Origin: a bacterium
GTDB taxonomy: Bacteria; B130-G9
Assembly: GCA_035527515.1 (NCBI GenBank)
Contig: DATLAJ010000037.1
Location: 1-49,870 of the forward strand
Direction: 5' to 3'
DNA: 49,870 bases
In this document: piece after piece, positions 29,321 to 42,605 of the stretch
Numbering within the stretch: position 1 is the first letter of the stretch
Layout of the letters: every line of letters starts with the position of its first letter
Program-made: the position numbers and the translations under genes
The notes under the pieces: model-generated
Database searches by the model: none
Seen by the model: the letters and a program-made list of their open reading frames with translations, nothing else
Told to the model about the DNA's origin: nothing

Positions 29321-29344
29321 GCGGAGGCTCTCCGCCGCCCCTAC
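29321..29344. repeat. Hairpin ending in GCCCCTAC that supplies a stop codon
   Basis: GCGGA (29321-29325) pairs with TCCGC (29331-29335) and is followed by CGCCCCTAC. The final CTA (29341-29343) is read on the minus strand as the TAG stop of the propeller gene, so the repeat end overlaps the coding region. Confidence 0.5.
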
Positions 29345-31452
29345 ATGAATGTGAACGAGGCGCTCGAGATGTCGGTTATCATGTTGAAAGTGCCCTGCTC
29401 GAATATCGCTGTCATCCAGGTGTATTGCCCAGTCGCGAAATCTTCCGGGAAGTCGTAGATGAGCACGAGCACCGTTGGCATCATCGTCCCGGACGGCAGC
29501 ATGCCGCTCATAAACGGCGCCGGCAGGTCCCCGCCAGGATAATAGAAGAGCGTGCCGTCAGGCAGCATACAGGCGATCTGGATGTCGATGTCTATGTCCG
29601 GCCCCGGATTCTCGTAACTTATCGCAACCGTCATCACGTCCCCCGCGTGGTACTCCTCGCTGTCGGTCCCTATCGTTATCGTGGGTCCAGGCGGCTTGAC
29701 GCCCGACTCGCGGCACAAAAGGCCAGCCGGCGTTGCGAACCAGACGTCGCCGTTCGGGGCTATCGAGATGTCGCGTATCTCGTTGACGGGAATGCCGCTG
29801 TCGATGTCCCACATCTTCCACTCGTGGCCGTCGAAGTAGCCCAGGCCGTCGGCCGTGCCCACCCAGACGTTGCCCTGCGCATCGCACTCGATGCAGTTGA
29901 TAGCGTTCGAGGGAAGCCCATCATCGACCGTGTACCGAGCCAGCTCCCCTGAAAAATCCACCAGGGAGACTCCTGTATCCTTGAACCCGAGCCAAAGCGC
30001 GTCGCGGCCTGCGCAGGCCATCGCCGTTACGTTCTGATACTCGGGCAGCCATCTGACAACGCTGTTTCCGAGAAAGGCCGCGACGCCCGAAGGGATGCTG
30101 ACCCAGACCTTGCCGAGCTCGTCGAGGGCGATGGCCTGCGGACTACCCCACGACTCGGTTGGCCAGGACATCCAAGAGGCGCCGTCGTATCGGGCGAGGC
30201 CGTTTAGGGCGCAGACCCAGAGCCTGCGCTCGTAATCGCAGCAGAGGGCCTTGCAGTAGCTGAGCGGTATCCCATCGCTGCCGGCCCTGGAGTAGTTGAT
30301 GAACGTGCCCTGCCACTTCCGCAGCATGCCCTGTTGGCCAAACCAAATCGCGCCTGTCCCGTCGAAAGCGATGTCATAGACGGCGTTGACGCCGTAGGCC
30401 TCCGGGCGGTAAAGGACCTCCCAGTTCGGCGCGTCGTAGTATCCGATTTCGGCCTGTCCACACCCGTAGAAGACCTTGCTTCGCTCATCGACGGCGACGG
30501 AGTGCACGTCGTTGCTCATGACCGTATCGCCGGGAAAGTTCGTCCAGAGGCCGTTCTTGTAGCTCGCTATGCCCTGAGTGGTGCAGATGAACACGGTTCC
30601 GTCCGGGGCGCAGGCGACGCCCATGGTGACGTTCGATTCGAGGCCGGAGTTGAGCGTGTTGAAGGTGGTCCAGCTCTCGCCGTCGAACATGGAGACACCT
30701 GAAGTATAGTCGCCGACCCACACCCGGCCGTCCGGACCTACATCTACAAACATGGGCATATAGCCAGCAAGACCGTCATCGGGCATGTATGAGTGCACCA
30801 GGACGCCATCCTGAAATCGATGCGCCAGGTTCATGTCCGTTATCCATACTTCGCCCGACCCGCCGACGGCCATGTCCGTCGGATCAAGGAGGGGCAAGTC
30901 GTCGAACACCCTCCACACGCCATCTCTGTACCTGGCAAGCCTCCCTCCCTGTCGTGAGACAGCGAACCATCCCGTCCCGTCTTGCTCGAAACATATTTGT
31001 TGTGCATAGAAGCTAGGTACACCTTCTACAGAGCGCCAGATTTCGCCGTCGAAGCGCCAAAGCTCGCCCCACAACGAGCACCACACGCTTCCGTCGGGCG
31101 CCGCGGCAATAGCCCCAATGTTACCCGGGAACTCGTGCCAAGCAACGAAATCCTCAGCTATGCAGAAGACCTTGTTCCACGAGCCGACCCACACCCGGCC
31201 CTGAGTATCGATAGCGAGACCTATCGACCAGGTAGCCGCCTCAACGCGGTAGGTCTTATACTCGCCCGTCGATGGCACGAAGCTAACAACTCCTCCGGGA
31301 CCGGCCCTAAACCATAGGGTCCCGTCAGTGCCCACCTGCGGGTAGCTGACACCCGTAGCGCAGAACGGATTATCATAAAGCACGAAGTCGCCCGCATTGA
31401 CGATGCCGCAGAAGAGAACAACGAAGCAAATGAAAGACAGAAGACTCTTCAT
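29341..31452 (-). CDS. Secreted two-component-regulator-type beta-propeller protein
   Basis: A 703-residue exported protein. The ATG at 31452 with GAGGAG eight bases upstream begins a signal peptide (MKSLLSFICFVVLFCGIVNA); the open frame extends 17 codons further but without a ribosome site. Residues about 25-580 hold many short propeller blades of the type DxxGxVWVGTxxGLxxYDGxxW, as in the sensor parts of hybrid two-component systems (for example VDVGPDGRVWVGDYTSG, IAPNGDVWFATPAGLL), here without any kinase. Residues about 590-703 form a beta-sandwich (ITIGTDSEEYHAGDVMTVAI) resembling the N-terminal module of the protein at 43544-45529. No membrane anchor is seen. Binding partner unknown. 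Confidence 0.85.
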   Translation of the reverse strand: MKSLLSFICFVVLFCGIVNAGDFVLYDNPFCATGVSYPQVGTDGTLWFRAGPGGVVSFVPSTGEYKTYRVEAATWSIGLAIDTQGRVWVGSWNKVFCIAEDFVAWHEFPGNIGAIAAAPDGSVWCSLWGELWRFDGEIWRSVEGVPSFYAQQICFEQDGTGWFAVSRQGGRLARYRDGVWRVFDDLPLLDPTDMAVGGSGEVWITDMNLAHRFQDGVLVHSYMPDDGLAGYMPMFVDVGPDGRVWVGDYTSGVSMFDGESWTTFNTLNSGLESNVTMGVACAPDGTVFICTTQGIASYKNGLWTNFPGDTVMSNDVHSVAVDERSKVFYGCGQAEIGYYDAPNWEVLYRPEAYGVNAVYDIAFDGTGAIWFGQQGMLRKWQGTFINYSRAGSDGIPLSYCKALCCDYERRLWVCALNGLARYDGASWMSWPTESWGSPQAIALDELGKVWVSIPSGVAAFLGNSVVRWLPEYQNVTAMACAGRDALWLGFKDTGVSLVDFSGELARYTVDDGLPSNAINCIECDAQGNVWVGTADGLGYFDGHEWKMWDIDSGIPVNEIRDISIAPNGDVWFATPAGLLCRESGVKPPGPTITIGTDSEEYHAGDVMTVAISYENPGPDIDIDIQIACMLPDGTLFYYPGGDLPAPFMSGMLPSGTMMPTVLVLIYDFPEDFATGQYTWMTAIFEQGTFNMITDISSASFTFM

Positions 31453-31489
31453 TTTCCAACTCCTCTCTTGATTCTTCACAGGATTAAAT

Positions 31490-31513
31490 GGGGGGCCGGA
31501 CACTCCCGGTCCC
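31490..31513 (-). terminator. Terminator-like hairpin between small secreted protein and propeller gene
   Basis: GGGGGCCGG (31490-31498) pairs with CCGGTCCCC (31505-31513), 9 bp with one wobble and a 6-nt loop. On the minus strand it is followed by ATTTAAT, a short T-rich run. It sits in the same relative place as the hairpin at 230-259 in the other secreted-protein pair. Confidence 0.5.
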
Positions 31514-31540: not shown

Positions 31541-31945
31541 CTATCCGCCGCAGTCTCCGGTCATTAGGCTGTATGGCAGGGAGCCATCCGGATCTCGGCT
31601 ATCGCAATCCTCGCACTGGAAGTAGTAGTAATAGGTGCTGTTCTCGTCCAGCTCCAAAGCTACGACATGCAAGACGCAAAGCGGCTGAGGGCTTTCGCCG
31701 ATCTCCGTGAGATGCGGCACAAAAGCTGGGTCCCCATCTTTCTTGATGTACAAATATACATCATGAGGCGGGTCCACCAAGTTGTGGTAAACGCTGAAAG
31801 TGAACACGCAGCTGTTGACGCCAGCTACAACGCCGCCGTTGCACAGCGCATCGCCCGAACAGCAGTTATCAGCCCAGACATACAGAGCGATGCCGGCACC
31901 CACCACCAAACAGATTGACAAGACTATCAAAGATCTTTTACTCAT
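31541..31945 (-). CDS. Small secreted cysteine-rich Ig-like-module protein
   Basis: A 134-residue exported protein. AAAGGAG precedes the ATG at 31945. Residues 1-25 are a signal peptide (MSKR, hydrophobic core, YVWA). The mature part has FTFSVYHNLVDPPHDVYLYI, then STYYYYFQCEDCDSRDPDGSLPYS, the same order as F-x-Y-x-V-x-Y ... YYFxxxD ... RxP in the repeats of the 11101-15696 protein. About nine cysteines suggest disulfides outside the cytoplasm. Like the gene at 281-643 it lies just upstream of a secreted propeller gene, with a hairpin between. No known family recognised. Confidence 0.75.
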   Translation of the reverse strand: MSKRSLIVLSICLVVGAGIALYVWADNCCSGDALCNGGVVAGVNSCVFTFSVYHNLVDPPHDVYLYIKKDGDPAFVPHLTEIGESPQPLCVLHVVALELDENSTYYYYFQCEDCDSRDPDGSLPYSLMTGDCGG

Positions 31946-33889: not shown

Positions 33890-36800
33890 ATGAACAGACC
33901 GAACAGATGTCTGCTCGCGCTCCTGCTCGCTACGATTCTCGTCTCGAGCGTTAGCGCCTCTTACATTAGAATAGGGCTTTACGACGGTTCCGTAGGGCAG
34001 GTTACCGACATCACGGCCCTGTGCGAGGACCTTTTCAGCTTCAGCCCGACGAACGTCATCCCTATCAACTTTTCGGGAGATTCTATCGTAGATGGCTACA
34101 TCGCCTTCAGTGAGAACACGCTTCAGATGTCCTATTGCGACGCTCGGACCTGGGCTGTCGTGCCGATCGGAGCCTTCGCCGCGGACGTCTTTGCATTCCA
34201 GCCCAGAAGGCTTTCCGTTGTTCATCGGGAGGGACAATTCGATGAGTTGTTGGCCTGGGATTATGGCCAGATAGTGCTGTTCGACCTCGATGACTTCGAG
34301 GCGCAGGACGTAACGATGGAGTTCGCTGGGGCGCTGTGCGTTTCAGGCGTATGCCTAAGCGACTCGTCGAACCTAGACGAGGCGACGTTGGCCTACGACG
34401 GAGAGAACTGGTATCTCGGCCTTGGCTACATCACGGGCTTTGTGGACGCTCTTTTGGGGCCAGGCGTGGTTCGGCTCACGCCGCTCAACGTTGTCGGCTC
34501 GACCGCGGACGATGCTATTGTCTTCGTTTTTGAGACGGACAACACACCGCCGGTCGCGGAGTTTACCATCTCGCCCGAGGCCGGTGATTCGAGCACAACG
34601 TTTGCGTTCGATGCCTCGGACTCATGGGACGCAGAGGATGAGGCGGACAGTTTGATGTCCCGCTGGGACTTCGACTCTGACGGCAGTTGGGACACTGAGC
34701 TTTCATTCGACAAGGTCGCGTATCACAGCTTCGGGTCGTCGGGCGAAAAGCAGGTAACCCTTCTCGTGATGGACACCGATGGTGCCACGGGAAGCAAGAC
34801 AAGTGCTCTGGTGGTCAGCAACGCTCGCCCGACAGCGGCCTTTGTGGTTGCTCCCGAGACGGGGACGGTGGGCACGGTCTTCTCGTTCGATGCCTCGGGG
34901 TCGTCAGACTACGAAGACGCGACCGAGGAGCTCGAGGTGCGCTGGGATTTTGAGTCGGACGGCACGTTCGACACTGATTTCACGAGAGAGAAGACTGCGC
35001 ACCATCAATATGACCGTCCACGGCTCTACACAGCAACGCTTCAGGTTCGGGATATGCAGGGCGGGCTCGGCCAGACGACGGACGACCTCGAAGTGGCAAA
35101 CCTAAGCCCGTCCCCTTGCTTCATGGCCACCCCAGAGGAAGGCACAGTGATTACCGATTTTGAGTTCGACGCAAGCTGCTCAAGCGACACGGAGGATTCG
35201 CTTGATTCGCTTCGGGTCCGCTGGGATTGGGACGACGACAGCATCTTTGACACCGCGTTTGGCTTCGACAAGACCGCACATCATCTCTTTGGGACTGTTG
35301 GCACGCACGTGGTTCGTTTGGAAGTCATGGATTCGAGTGGCGGAAGCAGCGTATGCCTGAAGAACATCAGGGTAATCAACACGCCTCCGACAGCGGCCTT
35401 TCTCGCGTCGCCCAACGAGGGGACCGTCAGGACGGCTTTCTCCTTCAACGCCTCGCTCAGCTCAGACTTGGAGGACCCGGCGCCGGAACTTCTGGTGCGT
35501 TGGGATTTCAACTCTGACGGGACCTTCGACACTGATTTCACAACGTTCAAGACCACCTCTCGAAGTTTCAGCACACCGGGCCAGAAGACGATAACGCTCG
35601 AGGTTGCTGACACACAGGACGCTCGCTCGACCACGACGCGGACGGTTACCGTCTTGAACACCGCCCCGACTGCCTGTTTCGCGTTTACACCGGCGACAGG
35701 CGACACTAGCACCGAGTTTGCGTTTGACGCGTCGTGCACGACTGACTGGGAGTCTACAGCCGGGACGCTGGAGTTCCGCTGGGATTTCGAGGGAGACGGG
35801 ACATTTGACACGCTGTTCTCTGACCAACCGACTGTGCATCATAAGTACGAGAGTCCAGGCACCAAGACGGTAGTGCTTGAGTCGCGGGATGAGCAGGGCT
35901 TGTCTGGCCAGACAAGCCGTTCGTTTTTTGTGGCGCAGGGCAACTTGCCGCCGACCGCATGTTTCGAGATTGAGCCGCAGTCGGGAACGACCGAGACGGC
36001 GTTCGAGTTTGACGCGAGCTGTTCGAGCGACCCCGATTCGGCCGATACCTCGCAGTTGCAGGTGCGCTGGGATTTCGAGGGAGATGGGGCTTTCGATACC
36101 GCTTTCAGCCACACGAAAGTGGCTTATTTCACGTTCGATACGGCTGGCTACAAGACGCCGACGGTAGAGGTTATGGACGAAGAGGGAGCAACCGATACCA
36201 CGAACCAGCGCATCTTCGTTCAAGAGATGAACTCCCCACCAGTCGCATGCTTCACGTATGCACCTCAGACCGGGAACACAGCCACGGAGTTCTCCTTTGA
36301 TGCCTCGTGCTCAAGCGACCCTGACGGCACATTCTCGACGCTCAAGTTCAGGTGGGACTTCGACGGGGATGGCACGTTCGATACGTCATATATGAGCTCA
36401 CCTACCATAACCCACCAGTTTGCGGCGCCGGGCACCTGGACGGTGATACTCGAGGTCATCGACGCACCTGGTGACACAGATACAGCGCAGAAAGATGTCG
36501 ATGTTGAGGCGGAGAATGACCCACCCGAGGCGTGTTTCTCGGTAACTCCTGTGTCCGGCGACACGGCCACATACTTCGAGTTTGACGCCTCGTGCAGCAC
36601 AGACCCAGACGGGACTGACTCGACGCTTCAGGTTAGGTGGGACTGGGAGAATGACGGGGTGTTTGACACCTCGTTTACCACGACGAAGACCGCGAGCCAT
36701 CGCTACCCAACGGCAGGCGCCAAGACCGTCAAGCTCCAGGTCAGGGATGCACACGGAGCGACGGACCAGACGACCTGGACAATCGATGTCGAGGAGGGAA

Positions 36801-37372
36801 ACGTTCCCCCGAGCGCATGTTTCACTGTTACCCCCGCAGGAGGGACAACCGAGACCGATTTCGAGTTTGATGCCTCGTGCAGCAGCGACCCGGACGGGAG
36901 CGACTCGACGCTTCAGGTTAGGTGGGACTGGGAGAATGACGGGGTGTTTGACACCTCGTTTACCACAATGAAGACCGCAAGCCATCGCTTCGAGGAGCCT
37001 GGTCAGCCCACTATCGTCGTTGAGGTTCTGGACGAGGGCGGCGCTACGGGGCACTACGCGAAACAGATAACGGTGGAATCTTCGGGCAACAGTCCTCCTG
37101 TGGCATACTTCACCGTAACCCCCGACACGGGCACTGTTGCGACAGTCTTCTTCCTTGACGCGTCAGGCTCGTCTGATGAGGATGAGGCGACCACGGGGAC
37201 GCTCGAGGTCCAGTGGGATTTTGATGGAGACGGGACCTACGATACGTCCTACACTGTCCAGAAGACGGTTACACACACGTTCGAGGACCCGGGCGCCTAC
37301 GACATTGTGCTCCGCGTTAAGGACCCGGAGGGGGCGACCGACACCTATACTCGAAGGGTATATGTTTACTGA
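33890..37372 (+). CDS. Secreted protein with ten tandem PKD domains
   Basis: A 1160-residue exported protein. GGAGG precedes the ATG, and residues 1-24 are a signal peptide ending SVSAS. A unique N-terminal domain (about 25-220) is followed by ten PKD modules of about 90-95 residues, each with (T/P)xAxFxxxPxxG, FxFDASxSSD, RWDFxxDGxFDT and HxFxxPGxxTVxLEV. In modules 3 and 5-9 both the ACF and the DASC positions are Cys; in modules 1, 2, 4 and 10 neither is, implying a disulfide per module. Modules 8 and 9 share a 65-base identical stretch, a recent duplication. No C-terminal anchor. It overlaps the dipeptidase start by one base. PKD arrays usually serve as spacers or binding rods at the cell surface. 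Confidence 0.88.
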   Translation: MNRPNRCLLALLLATILVSSVSASYIRIGLYDGSVGQVTDITALCEDLFSFSPTNVIPINFSGDSIVDGYIAFSENTLQMSYCDARTWAVVPIGAFAADVFAFQPRRLSVVHREGQFDELLAWDYGQIVLFDLDDFEAQDVTMEFAGALCVSGVCLSDSSNLDEATLAYDGENWYLGLGYITGFVDALLGPGVVRLTPLNVVGSTADDAIVFVFETDNTPPVAEFTISPEAGDSSTTFAFDASDSWDAEDEADSLMSRWDFDSDGSWDTELSFDKVAYHSFGSSGEKQVTLLVMDTDGATGSKTSALVVSNARPTAAFVVAPETGTVGTVFSFDASGSSDYEDATEELEVRWDFESDGTFDTDFTREKTAHHQYDRPRLYTATLQVRDMQGGLGQTTDDLEVANLSPSPCFMATPEEGTVITDFEFDASCSSDTEDSLDSLRVRWDWDDDSIFDTAFGFDKTAHHLFGTVGTHVVRLEVMDSSGGSSVCLKNIRVINTPPTAAFLASPNEGTVRTAFSFNASLSSDLEDPAPELLVRWDFNSDGTFDTDFTTFKTTSRSFSTPGQKTITLEVADTQDARSTTTRTVTVLNTAPTACFAFTPATGDTSTEFAFDASCTTDWESTAGTLEFRWDFEGDGTFDTLFSDQPTVHHKYESPGTKTVVLESRDEQGLSGQTSRSFFVAQGNLPPTACFEIEPQSGTTETAFEFDASCSSDPDSADTSQLQVRWDFEGDGAFDTAFSHTKVAYFTFDTAGYKTPTVEVMDEEGATDTTNQRIFVQEMNSPPVACFTYAPQTGNTATEFSFDASCSSDPDGTFSTLKFRWDFDGDGTFDTSYMSSPTITHQFAAPGTWTVILEVIDAPGDTDTAQKDVDVEAENDPPEACFSVTPVSGDTATYFEFDASCSTDPDGTDSTLQVRWDWENDGVFDTSFTTTKTASHRYPTAGAKTVKLQVRDAHGATDQTTWTIDVEEGNVPPSACFTVTPAGGTTETDFEFDASCSSDPDGSDSTLQVRWDWENDGVFDTSFTTMKTASHRFEEPGQPTIVVEVLDEGGATGHYAKQITVESSGNSPPVAYFTVTPDTGTVATVFFLDASGSSDEDEATTGTLEVQWDFDGDGTYDTSYTVQKTVTHTFEDPGAYDIVLRVKDPEGATDTYTRRVYVY
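36617..36966 (+). repeat. Recent internal duplication in the PKD gene
   Basis: Bases 36617-36681 and 36902-36966 are identical over 65 positions and 285 bases apart, exactly one 95-codon module. Neighbouring modules are far more diverged, so this unit was copied or converted recently. Confidence 0.85.
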
Positions 37373-38343: not shown

Positions 38344-40566
38344 ATGACTGCCTATTTCTCGACACTCGCTAGGCTGTGGGGAGCGAGTTTCGGCCTCGGC
38401 CTGCTGGCCTGGCCCGTCATCATGTTCCCCTGCAAGCCTCTCCGCGACCGGGGATATGCCATCAGCAAAGTTTTTGGGACCCTGCTTGTAACCTACGGCG
38501 CGTGGCTCGCATCATCGCTCAAGGTTGTGCCTTTCGGCCTGCCTTCAATCCTTACTTCCGCAGCTGTGCTCGCCATAACCTCGTCCCTAACGCTCCTTCT
38601 GAGGCGCAAGGAGGTCCCGACTCTCGTCAAACCCCGCCTGCGCTCGATCGCCCTGACCGAGGTCGTGTTCATCGTCATCCTGGCGTTGATTCTCCTGCTG
38701 GTCGGCTATTATCCGGACGTAACGCCGGGCTCGGAGGGCATGATGGACCTGGGCATTCTCAACTCCGTATCCAGAACCGATTACTTCCCTGCGAAAGACG
38801 TCTGGATGAGCGGCGAGAGCATGAACTACTACTACTTCGGCCATGTCCTCGTGGCCGCGGTTGCGAAGCTCTGCCAAATGACCCCTGTGGCGTTCTACAA
38901 CCCCGCCAAAGCGCTATGGTTCGCTCTTTTCTGGCTCGGGATATTTTCACTGGGTTTCTCGATGACCCGGCGCGCCTCATACGGCTTCCTAGCCATTTTC
39001 TTGGTCGGGATAGCGGGGAACTTCGACGCCCTACTGCAACTTTTGGCGCTCTGTAACCCCCTCTCGCTTGACTGGTTCGGCTCCTCGAGAATCATCCCAG
39101 ACACCATCAATGAGTTCCCATTCTTCAGCCTGCTGTGGGGTGATCTGCACGCTTACGTCCTCTCGCTTCCGCTCTTTGCGACGTCCCTGGCCCTTATCTA
39201 CTGCCTGAATGGGCGACTCACACCAAGGCGCGGGCATTCTGACAGCAGGGAAACCCCATACGGGCTCATCGTCCTCTTGGCACTGTGCGGAGGCGCGCTC
39301 ATGGTAACGAACGCCTGGGACTTAATCTCGATGTCACTTGTCCTGTTTGCTGTTGTGATCTCCGCCCTGCCCCTTGTGAGAACTGGCCTCCTGCGGCATG
39401 TTATCGCCATTGCCAGGACTACATTCCCGGTTCTCGGCGGGGCAGTGGTTCTATTTCTCCCCTTCATACTCTCCGTCTCGCAGAACCGCCCCATCGGCTT
39501 CGTCAAGGAGCGAACCGATTCTGCCGATTTTGTGGTTGTCTTCGGGGTATTGCTCGTGCCGATTCTAGTGGAGGCGCTGGTTGCGATTCGTTTTGCACGG
39601 GTGGGTCATGCAGGGCCAAGTGGTGGGACGTCGTGGGTGGTCCGGGCCTTTTTTGTTGTCTGTCTATATGTCGCTTTGGGGCGGCCAACTTGGATGCTAC
39701 TCCTATTGGTCATCCCGCTGGCAGTCCTGGGATACTTTCACATGGGTAGGCTAGTTTCCGGGCGGGACAAGGATGAGTTAGAGGCTTGGCTCTCACGGGG
39801 TCGGTTCTTCGCGGTCCTTGTGGTCTCGGGGGCGCTGATAGCTTTTTCATGTGAGATGTTCTATGTAGAGGACGTTTACAGTGGAGGTCTGGCTCGGATG
39901 AATACCGTCTTCAAGCTTTACTTGCACGTGTGGGTGCTGTGGGGGGTCTCGGCGGCGTGCGCGGCGTGGGTGCTCAGAAGCCATTTGCTAAAACGACTGG
40001 GCCATGTCGCTAGACCAGCCGTCTGGGGGCTTGTTATCTTCTGTCTTGGCTCGGGCGTGCTCTATCCGCTGCTGGCGCCGATCTCCAGAACCAAACTCTT
40101 CTCGCAGGCCCATACTCTTGATGCGGACCGGGCCTTCAGGAACAAGTATCCTTCCGACGCTGCCGCGGTCAAATGGCTTCTGGAAAACGCACCAGGTCAG
40201 CTTGTCATCGCGGAGGCTAGCACATCCGCCTACGATTGGCCGGGCCGAATCTCTGCTTTCAGTGGGCACTGTGCAGTAGTTGGTTGGTGGGGACATGAGG
40301 TAGGATGGCGGGATGAGTTCGAGGCGATACATCACAGAGCATTCGAGATCGAACGGCTCTTCAGGTCGACCGACCCAAACGTGACCATCGATGTCATCTC
40401 AAAATATGGTATTCAGCTGATCTACTATGGCGAGGTCGAAGGGGAAATCTATGGGGAGGCCGGGCTTCAGAAGTTCCAGTCAGCTTTTGAGACGGTCTAT
40501 GCCTCGGACGGGGTCAAGGTGTTCGACGTGAGGAGGCCCAAAATGAGTGTCGAGGCAGGCGGATGA
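38344..40566 (+). CDS. DUF2298-family polytopic membrane protein
   Basis: A 740-residue inner-membrane protein with about 14 hydrophobic segments. It fits the DUF2298 (Chlor_Arch_YYY) family, known in Chloroflexota and Archaea: GSEGMMDLGILNSVSRTDYFPAKDVWMSG, MNYYYFGHVL and PDTINEFPFFSLLWGDLHAY are its recognisable blocks (here quoted in parts). The soluble C-terminal region (about 590-740: AAAVKWLLENAPGQLVIAEA, SAFSGHCAVVGWWGHE) resembles that of GT-C transferases acting on lipid-linked sugars. It starts 15 bases after the dipeptidase, and its stop overlaps the next start by 4 bases (ATGA). This pairing with an Agl23-like protein is itself typical. Likely role: glycan transfer or export; substrate unknown. 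Confidence 0.85.
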   Translation: MTAYFSTLARLWGASFGLGLLAWPVIMFPCKPLRDRGYAISKVFGTLLVTYGAWLASSLKVVPFGLPSILTSAAVLAITSSLTLLLRRKEVPTLVKPRLRSIALTEVVFIVILALILLLVGYYPDVTPGSEGMMDLGILNSVSRTDYFPAKDVWMSGESMNYYYFGHVLVAAVAKLCQMTPVAFYNPAKALWFALFWLGIFSLGFSMTRRASYGFLAIFLVGIAGNFDALLQLLALCNPLSLDWFGSSRIIPDTINEFPFFSLLWGDLHAYVLSLPLFATSLALIYCLNGRLTPRRGHSDSRETPYGLIVLLALCGGALMVTNAWDLISMSLVLFAVVISALPLVRTGLLRHVIAIARTTFPVLGGAVVLFLPFILSVSQNRPIGFVKERTDSADFVVVFGVLLVPILVEALVAIRFARVGHAGPSGGTSWVVRAFFVVCLYVALGRPTWMLLLLVIPLAVLGYFHMGRLVSGRDKDELEAWLSRGRFFAVLVVSGALIAFSCEMFYVEDVYSGGLARMNTVFKLYLHVWVLWGVSAACAAWVLRSHLLKRLGHVARPAVWGLVIFCLGSGVLYPLLAPISRTKLFSQAHTLDADRAFRNKYPSDAAAVKWLLENAPGQLVIAEASTSAYDWPGRISAFSGHCAVVGWWGHEVGWRDEFEAIHHRAFEIERLFRSTDPNVTIDVISKYGIQLIYYGEVEGEIYGEAGLQKFQSAFETVYASDGVKVFDVRRPKMSVEAGG

Positions 40567-42605
40567 GCACTGACAAGAGGGCCTACGATGTCTTCTTCTT
40601 TCTGTTTTTGGCTGTCGCTCTGCTCTCCGTTTTGGTGCGGTTCTGGAACCTTGATGTCAAGCCGCTTCACCACGACGAAGGCGTCAATGGCTTCTTCTTG
40701 GACAACCTGATCGAGCAGCGCGGCTATCGCTACGACCCCCAGAACTACCACGGGCCTATCATATACTACTTGGCCGCTCCGGCCGTCAAATCGTTCGGGA
40801 GAAGCATCTTCGCTCTTAGGTTCGTGCCGGCCCTTCTGGGCGCACTGATGGTCGTCCTATTCTGGCTGCTCAAGGAACGTCTCGGGAAGTTCCCGGCCGT
40901 CTGTGCGGCTGCGATGGTCGCGGCGTCGCCGACTCTTGTTTACTACAGCCGAGAGTTCATTCACGAGATATATCTGGTCTTCTTCACGTTGGCCTTCTTG
41001 CTCTCTGCCGAGGACTTCGCCAGAACACGCAGGCCCCGGATGCTTTTATTATCCGGACTATGGCTCGCGCTCGGCTTTACCACCAAGGAAACGACTCTGC
41101 TTCATTCGGCCATGATGCTCCTTGCTTTTGCCTTGGCGATGGGCCTAAGCCCCGACCGAGCCCCAGCGCGGGCAAGAGACCTCCTCCTCCGCCTCATGTA
41201 TGCGCCCGCACGAGCGATAATGTCGATCATCAAAGACCAGCCCGTAGCATTTGCCGCGTCGCTTGTGCTCTTCTGGGTTGTCATCGTAACGTTCTTCTCA
41301 TCCTTCTTCACAAACTTGAGGGGCATCGCCGACTTCTTCGCCGCATTCACCACTTGGACAAGAACGGGGCTAGAGATGAGTGGCCATTCCAAGCCCGCGT
41401 TCTATTTTTTGAGGGTTTTGTGGGAGATTGAACCGCTGACGCTTCTTCTGGGTGCGCTTGGGGTAGCGACGAGCCTTCGGTCGCAAGATGTTCTTGAGCG
41501 ATTTGCGTCATTCTGGGCCTTACTGACGTTCATAGTCTATTCTGCCGTGCCATACAAGACGCCGTGGCTTGTCATGGACATCATGCTGCCGCTGGTCATC
41601 TGCGCTGCCTGTTTTGTCAGGCGGGTCTTGAAGGCGCTGAAGGGTCACCGTGTGGTGGCTGCGGTCTGCGTTGCCGCCTTCGTCGGAGCCGTCGGTTGGT
41701 CGGGGGCACTGGCGTGGGATGTTTCTCTGGTGCGATATGACGACAACGAGATCCCGATCGTATATGTCCAGACATTTCGGGAGATGAATGACCTCGTCAG
41801 CCGGATAGATAGAATCGCCAAGCGCGTCGCCGGCGACAGGACGTGTATCTATGTCTTCGCCAAGGGCCAGTGGCCGCTGAGCTGGTACTTGCACCGTTTC
41901 GACAGTAGGTTTCCAGAGACCATAACGGCTCGCAAGGTTCTCCGGGCGGATATTATTGTCGCCTCGCTCGATCAGGAAGAGGAGATTGAGGAGCTGAGCA
42001 AGGGCCGGTTCGTTGCGGAGCGATTCAATCTGAGGCCGCAGGTCTCGCTGACGGTGTTTGCTCCCCGGCGATATGCAGCCCTCTTACAGCCACCCCATAG
42101 CGAGGGAGAGATTTTTCTGCCGCTCGACACGAAAGTGCCGCTCGAGACCGGCCTGGTCGCGAGATACTTCAAGGGGCCGCAGCTGCTTCCTCCTGCGTAT
42201 CGGGTGGAGGTCCAAAACGTTGTCGATTTCGAGTATGAGAAGGACTTTGGGAAGGATTTCGATGCCCCAGCAAGCATGCGCTGGGATGGCTATCTCCGGG
42301 TCCCCAAGACAGGGCAGTATGGTTTTCTCATCACGTCCGACGACGGTTCACGGTTCTTTGTTGATGGTGTCCTGCTCATAGATAATTGGGGCGAGCACGC
42401 TGCGGCGACCAGGGCCGGCAAAGCGACGCTGGCCGCGGGTTACCACCGCATCCGTGTTGACTACTTCGATGCTGGGTGGGGTGCTGTAATGAAGCTCGAG
42501 TGGGACCCACCCGACCGCGACGCTGAGCTGCTGACCCCCATGTTTCTCTACCACGCAGCGGCCGCATTTGTTGAAGACGACTACCCCATACAGGCGCAGC
42601 AGTAG
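40563..42605 (+). CDS. Agl23-like GT-C membrane protein fused to a PA14 domain
   Basis: A 680-residue protein. Residues about 10-400 are polytopic and match the TIGR03663/Agl23 group: RFWNLDVKPLHHDEGVNGFF with the acidic pair expected in the first GT-C loop, YDPQNYHGPIIYYL, PTLVYYSREFIHEIY and LGFTTKETT. Residues about 525-670 form a PA14 domain (GLVARYFKG, SMRWDGYLRVPKTGQYGF, SDDGSRFFVDGVLLIDNWG, AGYHRIRVDYFDAGWGA), normally a carbohydrate-binding beta-barrel. The PA14 part would lie outside the membrane. Coupled to the DUF2298 gene by ATGA. In haloarchaea Agl23 is linked to N-glycosylation; in bacteria the role is unknown. Confidence 0.88.
   Translation: MSTDKRAYDVFFFLFLAVALLSVLVRFWNLDVKPLHHDEGVNGFFLDNLIEQRGYRYDPQNYHGPIIYYLAAPAVKSFGRSIFALRFVPALLGALMVVLFWLLKERLGKFPAVCAAAMVAASPTLVYYSREFIHEIYLVFFTLAFLLSAEDFARTRRPRMLLLSGLWLALGFTTKETTLLHSAMMLLAFALAMGLSPDRAPARARDLLLRLMYAPARAIMSIIKDQPVAFAASLVLFWVVIVTFFSSFFTNLRGIADFFAAFTTWTRTGLEMSGHSKPAFYFLRVLWEIEPLTLLLGALGVATSLRSQDVLERFASFWALLTFIVYSAVPYKTPWLVMDIMLPLVICAACFVRRVLKALKGHRVVAAVCVAAFVGAVGWSGALAWDVSLVRYDDNEIPIVYVQTFREMNDLVSRIDRIAKRVAGDRTCIYVFAKGQWPLSWYLHRFDSRFPETITARKVLRADIIVASLDQEEEIEELSKGRFVAERFNLRPQVSLTVFAPRRYAALLQPPHSEGEIFLPLDTKVPLETGLVARYFKGPQLLPPAYRVEVQNVVDFEYEKDFGKDFDAPASMRWDGYLRVPKTGQYGFLITSDDGSRFFVDGVLLIDNWGEHAAATRAGKATLAAGYHRIRVDYFDAGWGAVMKLEWDPPDRDAELLTPMFLYHAAAAFVEDDYPIQAQQ

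Follow-up and report, generated by a model that had tools for sequence, protein, structure and literature searches.

All-or-None Cysteine Pairs in Tandem PKD Modules of a Bacterial Protein Suggest a Disulfide Between Strands A and B

The window analyzed here is a 49,870-nt stretch of bacterial DNA (assembly GCA_035527515.1, contig DATLAJ010000037.1). It contains an ORF encoding a 1160-aa protein with an N-terminus that, judged by eye, resembles a signal peptide, followed by an N-terminal region of approximately 195 residues and an array of PKD modules that continues to the C-terminus. The translation shows ten modules in tandem (residues 218-1160), each 93-96 residues long and all in one register. 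When the whole protein was compared with PF18911 (PKD_4), ten stretches matched with a total of 306.4 bits (cut-off, 27; E-value, 3.1e-93), and each of the ten modules exceeded the cut-off when scored singly. By sequence, all ten belong to the Pfam families PKD_4 (PF18911) and PKD (PF00801). The features of the gene are as follows, with positions 7 and 27 counted from the start of each module:

33890..37372, + strand, gene for the 1160-aa protein: signal-peptide-like N-terminus, N-terminal region and ten tandem PKD modules
33956..34540, + strand, N-terminal region spanning residues 23-217, without a match in Pfam
34541..34819, + strand, PKD module 1, E/D at positions 7/27, no Cys pair
34820..35098, + strand, PKD module 2, A/G at positions 7/27, no Cys pair
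35099..35377, + strand, PKD module 3, Cys410/Cys430 (codons 35117-35119 and 35177-35179), with an additional Cys489
35378..35656, + strand, PKD module 4, A/L at positions 7/27, no Cys pair
35657..35941, + strand, PKD module 5, Cys596/Cys616 (codons 35675-35677 and 35735-35737)
35942..36229, + strand, PKD module 6, Cys691/Cys711 (codons 35960-35962 and 36020-36022)
36230..36514, + strand, PKD module 7, Cys787/Cys807 (codons 36248-36250 and 36308-36310)
36515..36799, + strand, PKD module 8, Cys882/Cys902 (codons 36533-36535 and 36593-36595), the basis of the structure model
36800..37087, + strand, PKD module 9, Cys977/Cys997 (codons 36818-36820 and 36878-36880)
37088..37369, + strand, PKD module 10, Y/G at positions 7/27, no Cys pair

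Elsewhere in the window, a 134-aa protein encoded at 31541-31945 (- strand) has a signal-peptide-like start and nine cysteines, all but one of which follow the likely signal, and had no match in NCBIfam. The gene at 29341-31503 (- strand) encodes a beta-propeller-like protein (Reg_prop) that is exported and weakly resembles the type IX secretion protein PorZ, with a score below the cut-off. Downstream of the array, at 38344-42605, are genes for two adjacent membrane proteins, one of the DUF2298 type and one of the PMT_2 type with a C-terminal PA14 domain. No Rfam match was found anywhere in the window. Within the N-terminal region of the 1160-aa protein, three or four loose internal repeats can seemingly be made out by eye (approximately residues 40-60, 95-110, and 180-200); a two-row structure model of this region was rejected (pLDDT 41).

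The original prediction held that two cysteines occur in the modules either together or not at all, and the translation bears this out: both positions 7 and 27 are Cys in modules 3, 5, 6, 7, 8, and 9, and neither is in modules 1, 2, 4, and 10. The spacing between the two is 20 residues in all six pairs. Two sets of six modules out of ten would coincide by chance with a probability of 1/210 (0.0048). As a control for selective attention to this pair, we listed the 78 column/residue states that occur in three to seven modules of the array; no two columns other than Cys 7 and Cys 27 shared one residue across an exactly matching set of modules. The protein also has cysteines beyond those in the original account, namely the third Cys of module 3 (Cys489) and four in the N-terminal region (Cys45, Cys83, Cys150, and Cys155).

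An ortholog of the protein (L011) was found in a different genus belonging to the same family, and an identical sequence was present in a second record (L030, 'bacterium isolate AUK292'). The ortholog and the window protein agree at 664 of 1160 aligned residues (57%). All 12 pair cysteines are kept in the ortholog, and its modules free of the Cys pair are the same four. The six remaining cysteines of the window protein are divided evenly, with Cys7 (in the likely signal peptide), Cys45, and Cys155 kept and Cys83, Cys150, and Cys489 absent; the ortholog in turn has a Cys1153 that the window protein lacks. The joint absence of Cys83 and Cys150 looks like the all-or-none behavior of the module pair.

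For a wider comparison, PKD modules were collected in similarity searches of named genome records (80 loci), viral contigs (4 loci), and further genomes, and were aligned with an iterated profile. Among 543 distinct modules, 510 had letters at both columns, and these comprised 26 with both cysteines (hereafter, CC modules), two with Cys at position 7 only, none with Cys at position 27 only, and 482 with neither (Fisher p 1e-41, a value that ignores relatedness among modules). Excluding rows with the same sequence as in the window protein or the ortholog left 490 modules, of which 14 were CC, two had only the first Cys, none had only the second, and 474 had neither. The 14 outside CC modules came from eight genomes, including a Gemmatimonadetes MAG (L031) and an Eisenbacteria MAG (L070) in addition to G017, G044, G051, G101, G274, and G375; five of the 14 are in a single protein of G375. 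Both half-pair modules (L085 and L024) lack the DAS-type motif of strand B. As a control, the neighboring column 28 was examined and found to hold Cys in 30 of the 543 distinct modules, as the sole Cys in 27. The four viral loci contained no CC module. Matches to PKD were found in 18 plasmid records, and the 15 modules recovered from seven of these had Cys at neither position; a second plasmid query found nothing.

Since the collecting queries themselves contained CC modules, we added pattern searches of 386 genomes that demanded only one of the two cysteines, and removed non-PKD matches by eye. The strand-B Cys pattern gave 20 matches, three of them non-PKD, and the strand-A Cys was present in 17 of 17 PKD modules, eight of which lie outside the window protein and its ortholog. 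Conversely, the strand-A Cys pattern gave 26 matches, 15 of them non-PKD, and the strand-B Cys was present in all 11 PKD modules, including four from outside the protein pair. Together with the 510-module survey, these conditional searches rule out chance co-occurrence. In the window protein, the ortholog, and unrelated modules alike, the two cysteines behave as one unit, kept or missing together. Spacing between the cysteines ranged from 19 to 23 residues among aligned CC modules and, counted by eye, was 34 in two lipoproteins of G248; judged from these sequences, the partners remain together despite changes in the length of the loop between them.

Other cysteines were also observed in the surveyed modules. 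All five CC modules of the G375 protein (L191) have a Cys at position 18 as well, and cysteines at columns 18 and 33 co-occur in six surveyed modules, possibly representing a second PKD disulfide. The position-28 Cys (DASxC; in L012 and others) aligns with Thr800 of the clostridial collagenase ColH, a residue that stabilizes the bulge described below. In L148 (from G101), the CC modules are followed by a stretch that, by eye, resembles a formylglycine-generating-enzyme/sulfatase-modifying domain.

The original prediction would fail if positions 7 and 27 were too far apart to bond, and three lines of evidence bear on whether they are in contact. Direct-coupling analysis of 530 modules placed 7-27 at rank 1 of 3828 pairs. 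With CC modules removed, the pair dropped to rank 503 of 3828, as is expected if the coupling at these positions is by Cys alone. The pairs 8-25, 9-24, 12-21, and 10-21 persisted without the CC modules and trace an antiparallel register between strand A and strand B, with i+j near 33. In a strict register, position 7 would be opposite position 26, so a 7-27 bond depends on a bulge in strand B. An AlphaFold2 model of module 8 (pLDDT 96.5, pTM 0.87) is a PKD beta sandwich in which residues 7 and 27 lie in irregular segments, and the isolated bridge residues 5 and 28 adjoin the two cysteines. The best matches of the model among solved folds were PKD chains (Z 13.8 for 2c26 and 12.5 for 4aqo); Ig-like chains with Z of 8-10 in the VIA-align list were set aside as ordinary fold likeness.

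A HMMER alignment to the s2b domain of ColH equates D30 with Asp802, S28 with Thr800, C27 with Gly799, and C7 with Ile779; when residues are counted instead from the calcium-ligand Asn774, position 7 corresponds to Tyr780, so that either position 7 or position 8 is the equivalent of Tyr780. In ColH s2b, a conserved bulge at Lys798/Gly799 deprives Tyr780 of strand A of its backbone partner, and the amide of Tyr780 is bonded by Thr800 (PMC4356367). Mapped in this way, the Cys pair would sit across the conserved strand-B bulge. The covariation register, the model, and the ColH mapping together argue strongly that positions 7 and 27 touch and bond, and neither the register nor the mapped crystal structure suggests that they are too distant to do so. 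We therefore consider it very probable that each of the six modules has one intra-module disulfide from position 7 in strand A to position 27 in the strand-B bulge, stapling A to B. The strand-to-strand disulfide of the original prediction thus finds good support in the reciprocal co-occurrence in unrelated modules, the register, and the ColH mapping, with the bond itself remaining a predicted one.

In clostridial domains, the ligands of calcium are the initial Asn, the carbonyl that follows it, a pair of Asp residues beyond strand B', and an Asp further along, at the end of strand F (PMC4356367). The equivalent positions N1, D30, and D78 are kept in ten of ten window modules, and position 32 is Asp in five and Glu in five; these residues are kept with or without the Cys pair. 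Given this conservation, calcium binding is probable in all ten modules and would take place where each module meets the one before it. The 7-27 disulfide would staple the N-terminal strand A to strand B beside this calcium site, closing a 20-residue loop that contains strand A' and the A-B turn and locking some 19 residues in each module. The contribution of calcium in the clostridial domains is about 2-3 kcal/mol (Table 3 of PMC4356367). When PKD domains from an archaeon and from human were pulled, the response to force was located in the A'/A-B loop against strand G (PMC2862302). A stapled module might remain closed despite a shortage of calcium, protease attack on the A-B loop, or tension on the rod, and the exported ten-module rod would then stay folded under circumstances that would otherwise loosen strand A. 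Pulling force would be diverted from residue 7 to residue 27, bypassing strand A'. Both this protection of the folded state and the rerouting of force are what we infer from the predicted position of the staple.

Folding in an oxidizing compartment, as the original prediction had it, is no more than plausible: the start of the protein resembles a signal peptide, yet DsbA (PF01323), DsbB (PF02600), and VKOR (PF07884) had no match in the window's genome, which is 95.6% complete, and Thioredoxin_4 gave a sub-threshold match there (21.4 bits versus a cut-off of 23.2). We extended the search to a panel of 12 genomes, consisting of the window's, three from its genus or family, and eight more that have CC modules; the DsbA search covered the window's genome only. 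DsbB was found in none of the 12, VKOR in one, and Thioredoxin_4 above its cut-off in seven. The bond may form extracellularly, or by way of an enzyme outside the DsbA, DsbB, VKOR, and Thioredoxin_4 families.

The lack of matches to DsbA, DsbB, and VKOR would also suit a reading in which the two cysteines form a metal site or a redox-active dithiol with no structural disulfide, but we consider this very improbable. There are only two cysteines per module (three in module 3), the alignment has no conserved His or further Cys, and the CXXC motif is absent; calcium, moreover, is held through other residues in PKD modules of this type (PMC4356367). It is also conceivable that disulfides join adjacent modules, or two copies of the protein, instead of linking position 7 to position 27 inside a module, and the unbroken run of CC modules from 5 to 9 would allow it. 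Nonetheless, module 3 is isolated, flanked by modules 2 and 4 that lack the pair, the Gemmatimonadetes protein (L031) has a single CC module adjoining a Cys-free one, and the two cysteines are coupled within single modules, all of which make such links scarcely credible.

A greater share of the remaining doubt attaches to shared ancestry alone, whereby one CC module was duplicated or gene-converted within the array and its cysteines traveled together unbonded. Modules 8 and 9 share an identical 65-nt run in mid-module and differ in their first thirds, which makes conversion inside the array probable and would be explained by a recent conversion or duplication; the Cys codons are merely about 60 nt apart; and the CC label is clustered on a tree of 146 modules built with columns 7 and 27 left out, where the best tree needs at least 13 changes of the CC state compared with 26 when labels are shuffled. 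However, both cysteines of six modules were kept in the ortholog even though 43% of residues changed, and CC is found in very different, unrelated modules of the eight other survey genomes and, by pattern search, in G112 and G248. Common descent also leaves the near-absence of half-pairs unexplained, given that a Cys at column 28 is in most cases the only one in its module. Hence, we regard ancestry without a bond as unlikely, and prefer the disulfide between positions 7 and 27.

On the same tree, starred branches make up 13 of 143 inner branches and force just one CC change, and the paired independent-pairs test on starred branches yielded a single pair. Judging by how diverse the modules that carry it are, the CC state probably arose more than once; on the tree, the case for many origins lies in the unresolved branches. 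A bolder form of the disulfide reading, which we put forward tentatively and think rather doubtful, is that the bulge staple has been invented repeatedly, Cys jointly taking the place of the residue at the bulge and its strand-A opposite wherever an exported module needed a hold on strand A independent of calcium or force; in this lineage, bond formation would proceed without DsbA, DsbB, or VKOR and so point to an unrecognized oxidant or oxidase.

Taken as a whole, the all-or-none Cys pair is real and repeatedly seen, and is best read as a structural disulfide in a variant of the well-known PKD domain, with a function that we infer. Exported microbial proteins are widely built from PKD modules, whose mechanics are under study. 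Stapled and unstapled modules in one chain would provide a natural experiment at a known irregular point, and a staple of two residues may offer a rule for hardening PKD linkers. The pair could also serve as a marker of oxidative folding in lineages without recognized disulfide machinery. Our searches of the literature, which mostly lacked subscription papers, found no description of this PKD Cys pair. The original prediction called such a disulfide unusual for PKD domains, and in frequency it is (14 of 490 modules once this protein pair is set aside), but bacterial PKD domains with predicted disulfides are already on record: the twin PKD linker of SMECel6A, which like the protein described here is bacterial and exported, has three predicted disulfides, which may or may not correspond to the pair described here (PMC10853513).

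A further likeness is with the C-terminal extension of the halolysin SptA, an exported accessory beta domain in which the disulfide Cys303-Cys338 guards against proteolysis, as shown by mutation; its spacing is 35 residues rather than 20, and the paper makes no mention of PKD (PMC3158780). The modeled fold of module 8 matches those of ColG, ColH, and a clostridial endoglucanase (2c26/2c4x). The solved relatives compared (five in each of three alignments, with chains such as 6aem, 4l9d, 4xed, and 7kv5 left out) differ from the six window modules in having no Cys at positions 7 and 27; the ColG and ColH paper nowhere uses the term 'disulfide' (PMC4356367). Strand order and the strand-B bulge are common to the window modules and the s2, s2a, and s2b domains of clostridial ColG and ColH (PMC4356367). 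The calcium ligands of ColG and ColH are Asn, Asp, Asp, and Asp, and the window modules have the same residues at the equivalent positions, except that the third is Asp or Glu (PMC4356367). At the ColH bulge, Thr800 and Asn825 contribute hydrogen bonds (PMC4356367), to which the six window modules would add a covalent bond.
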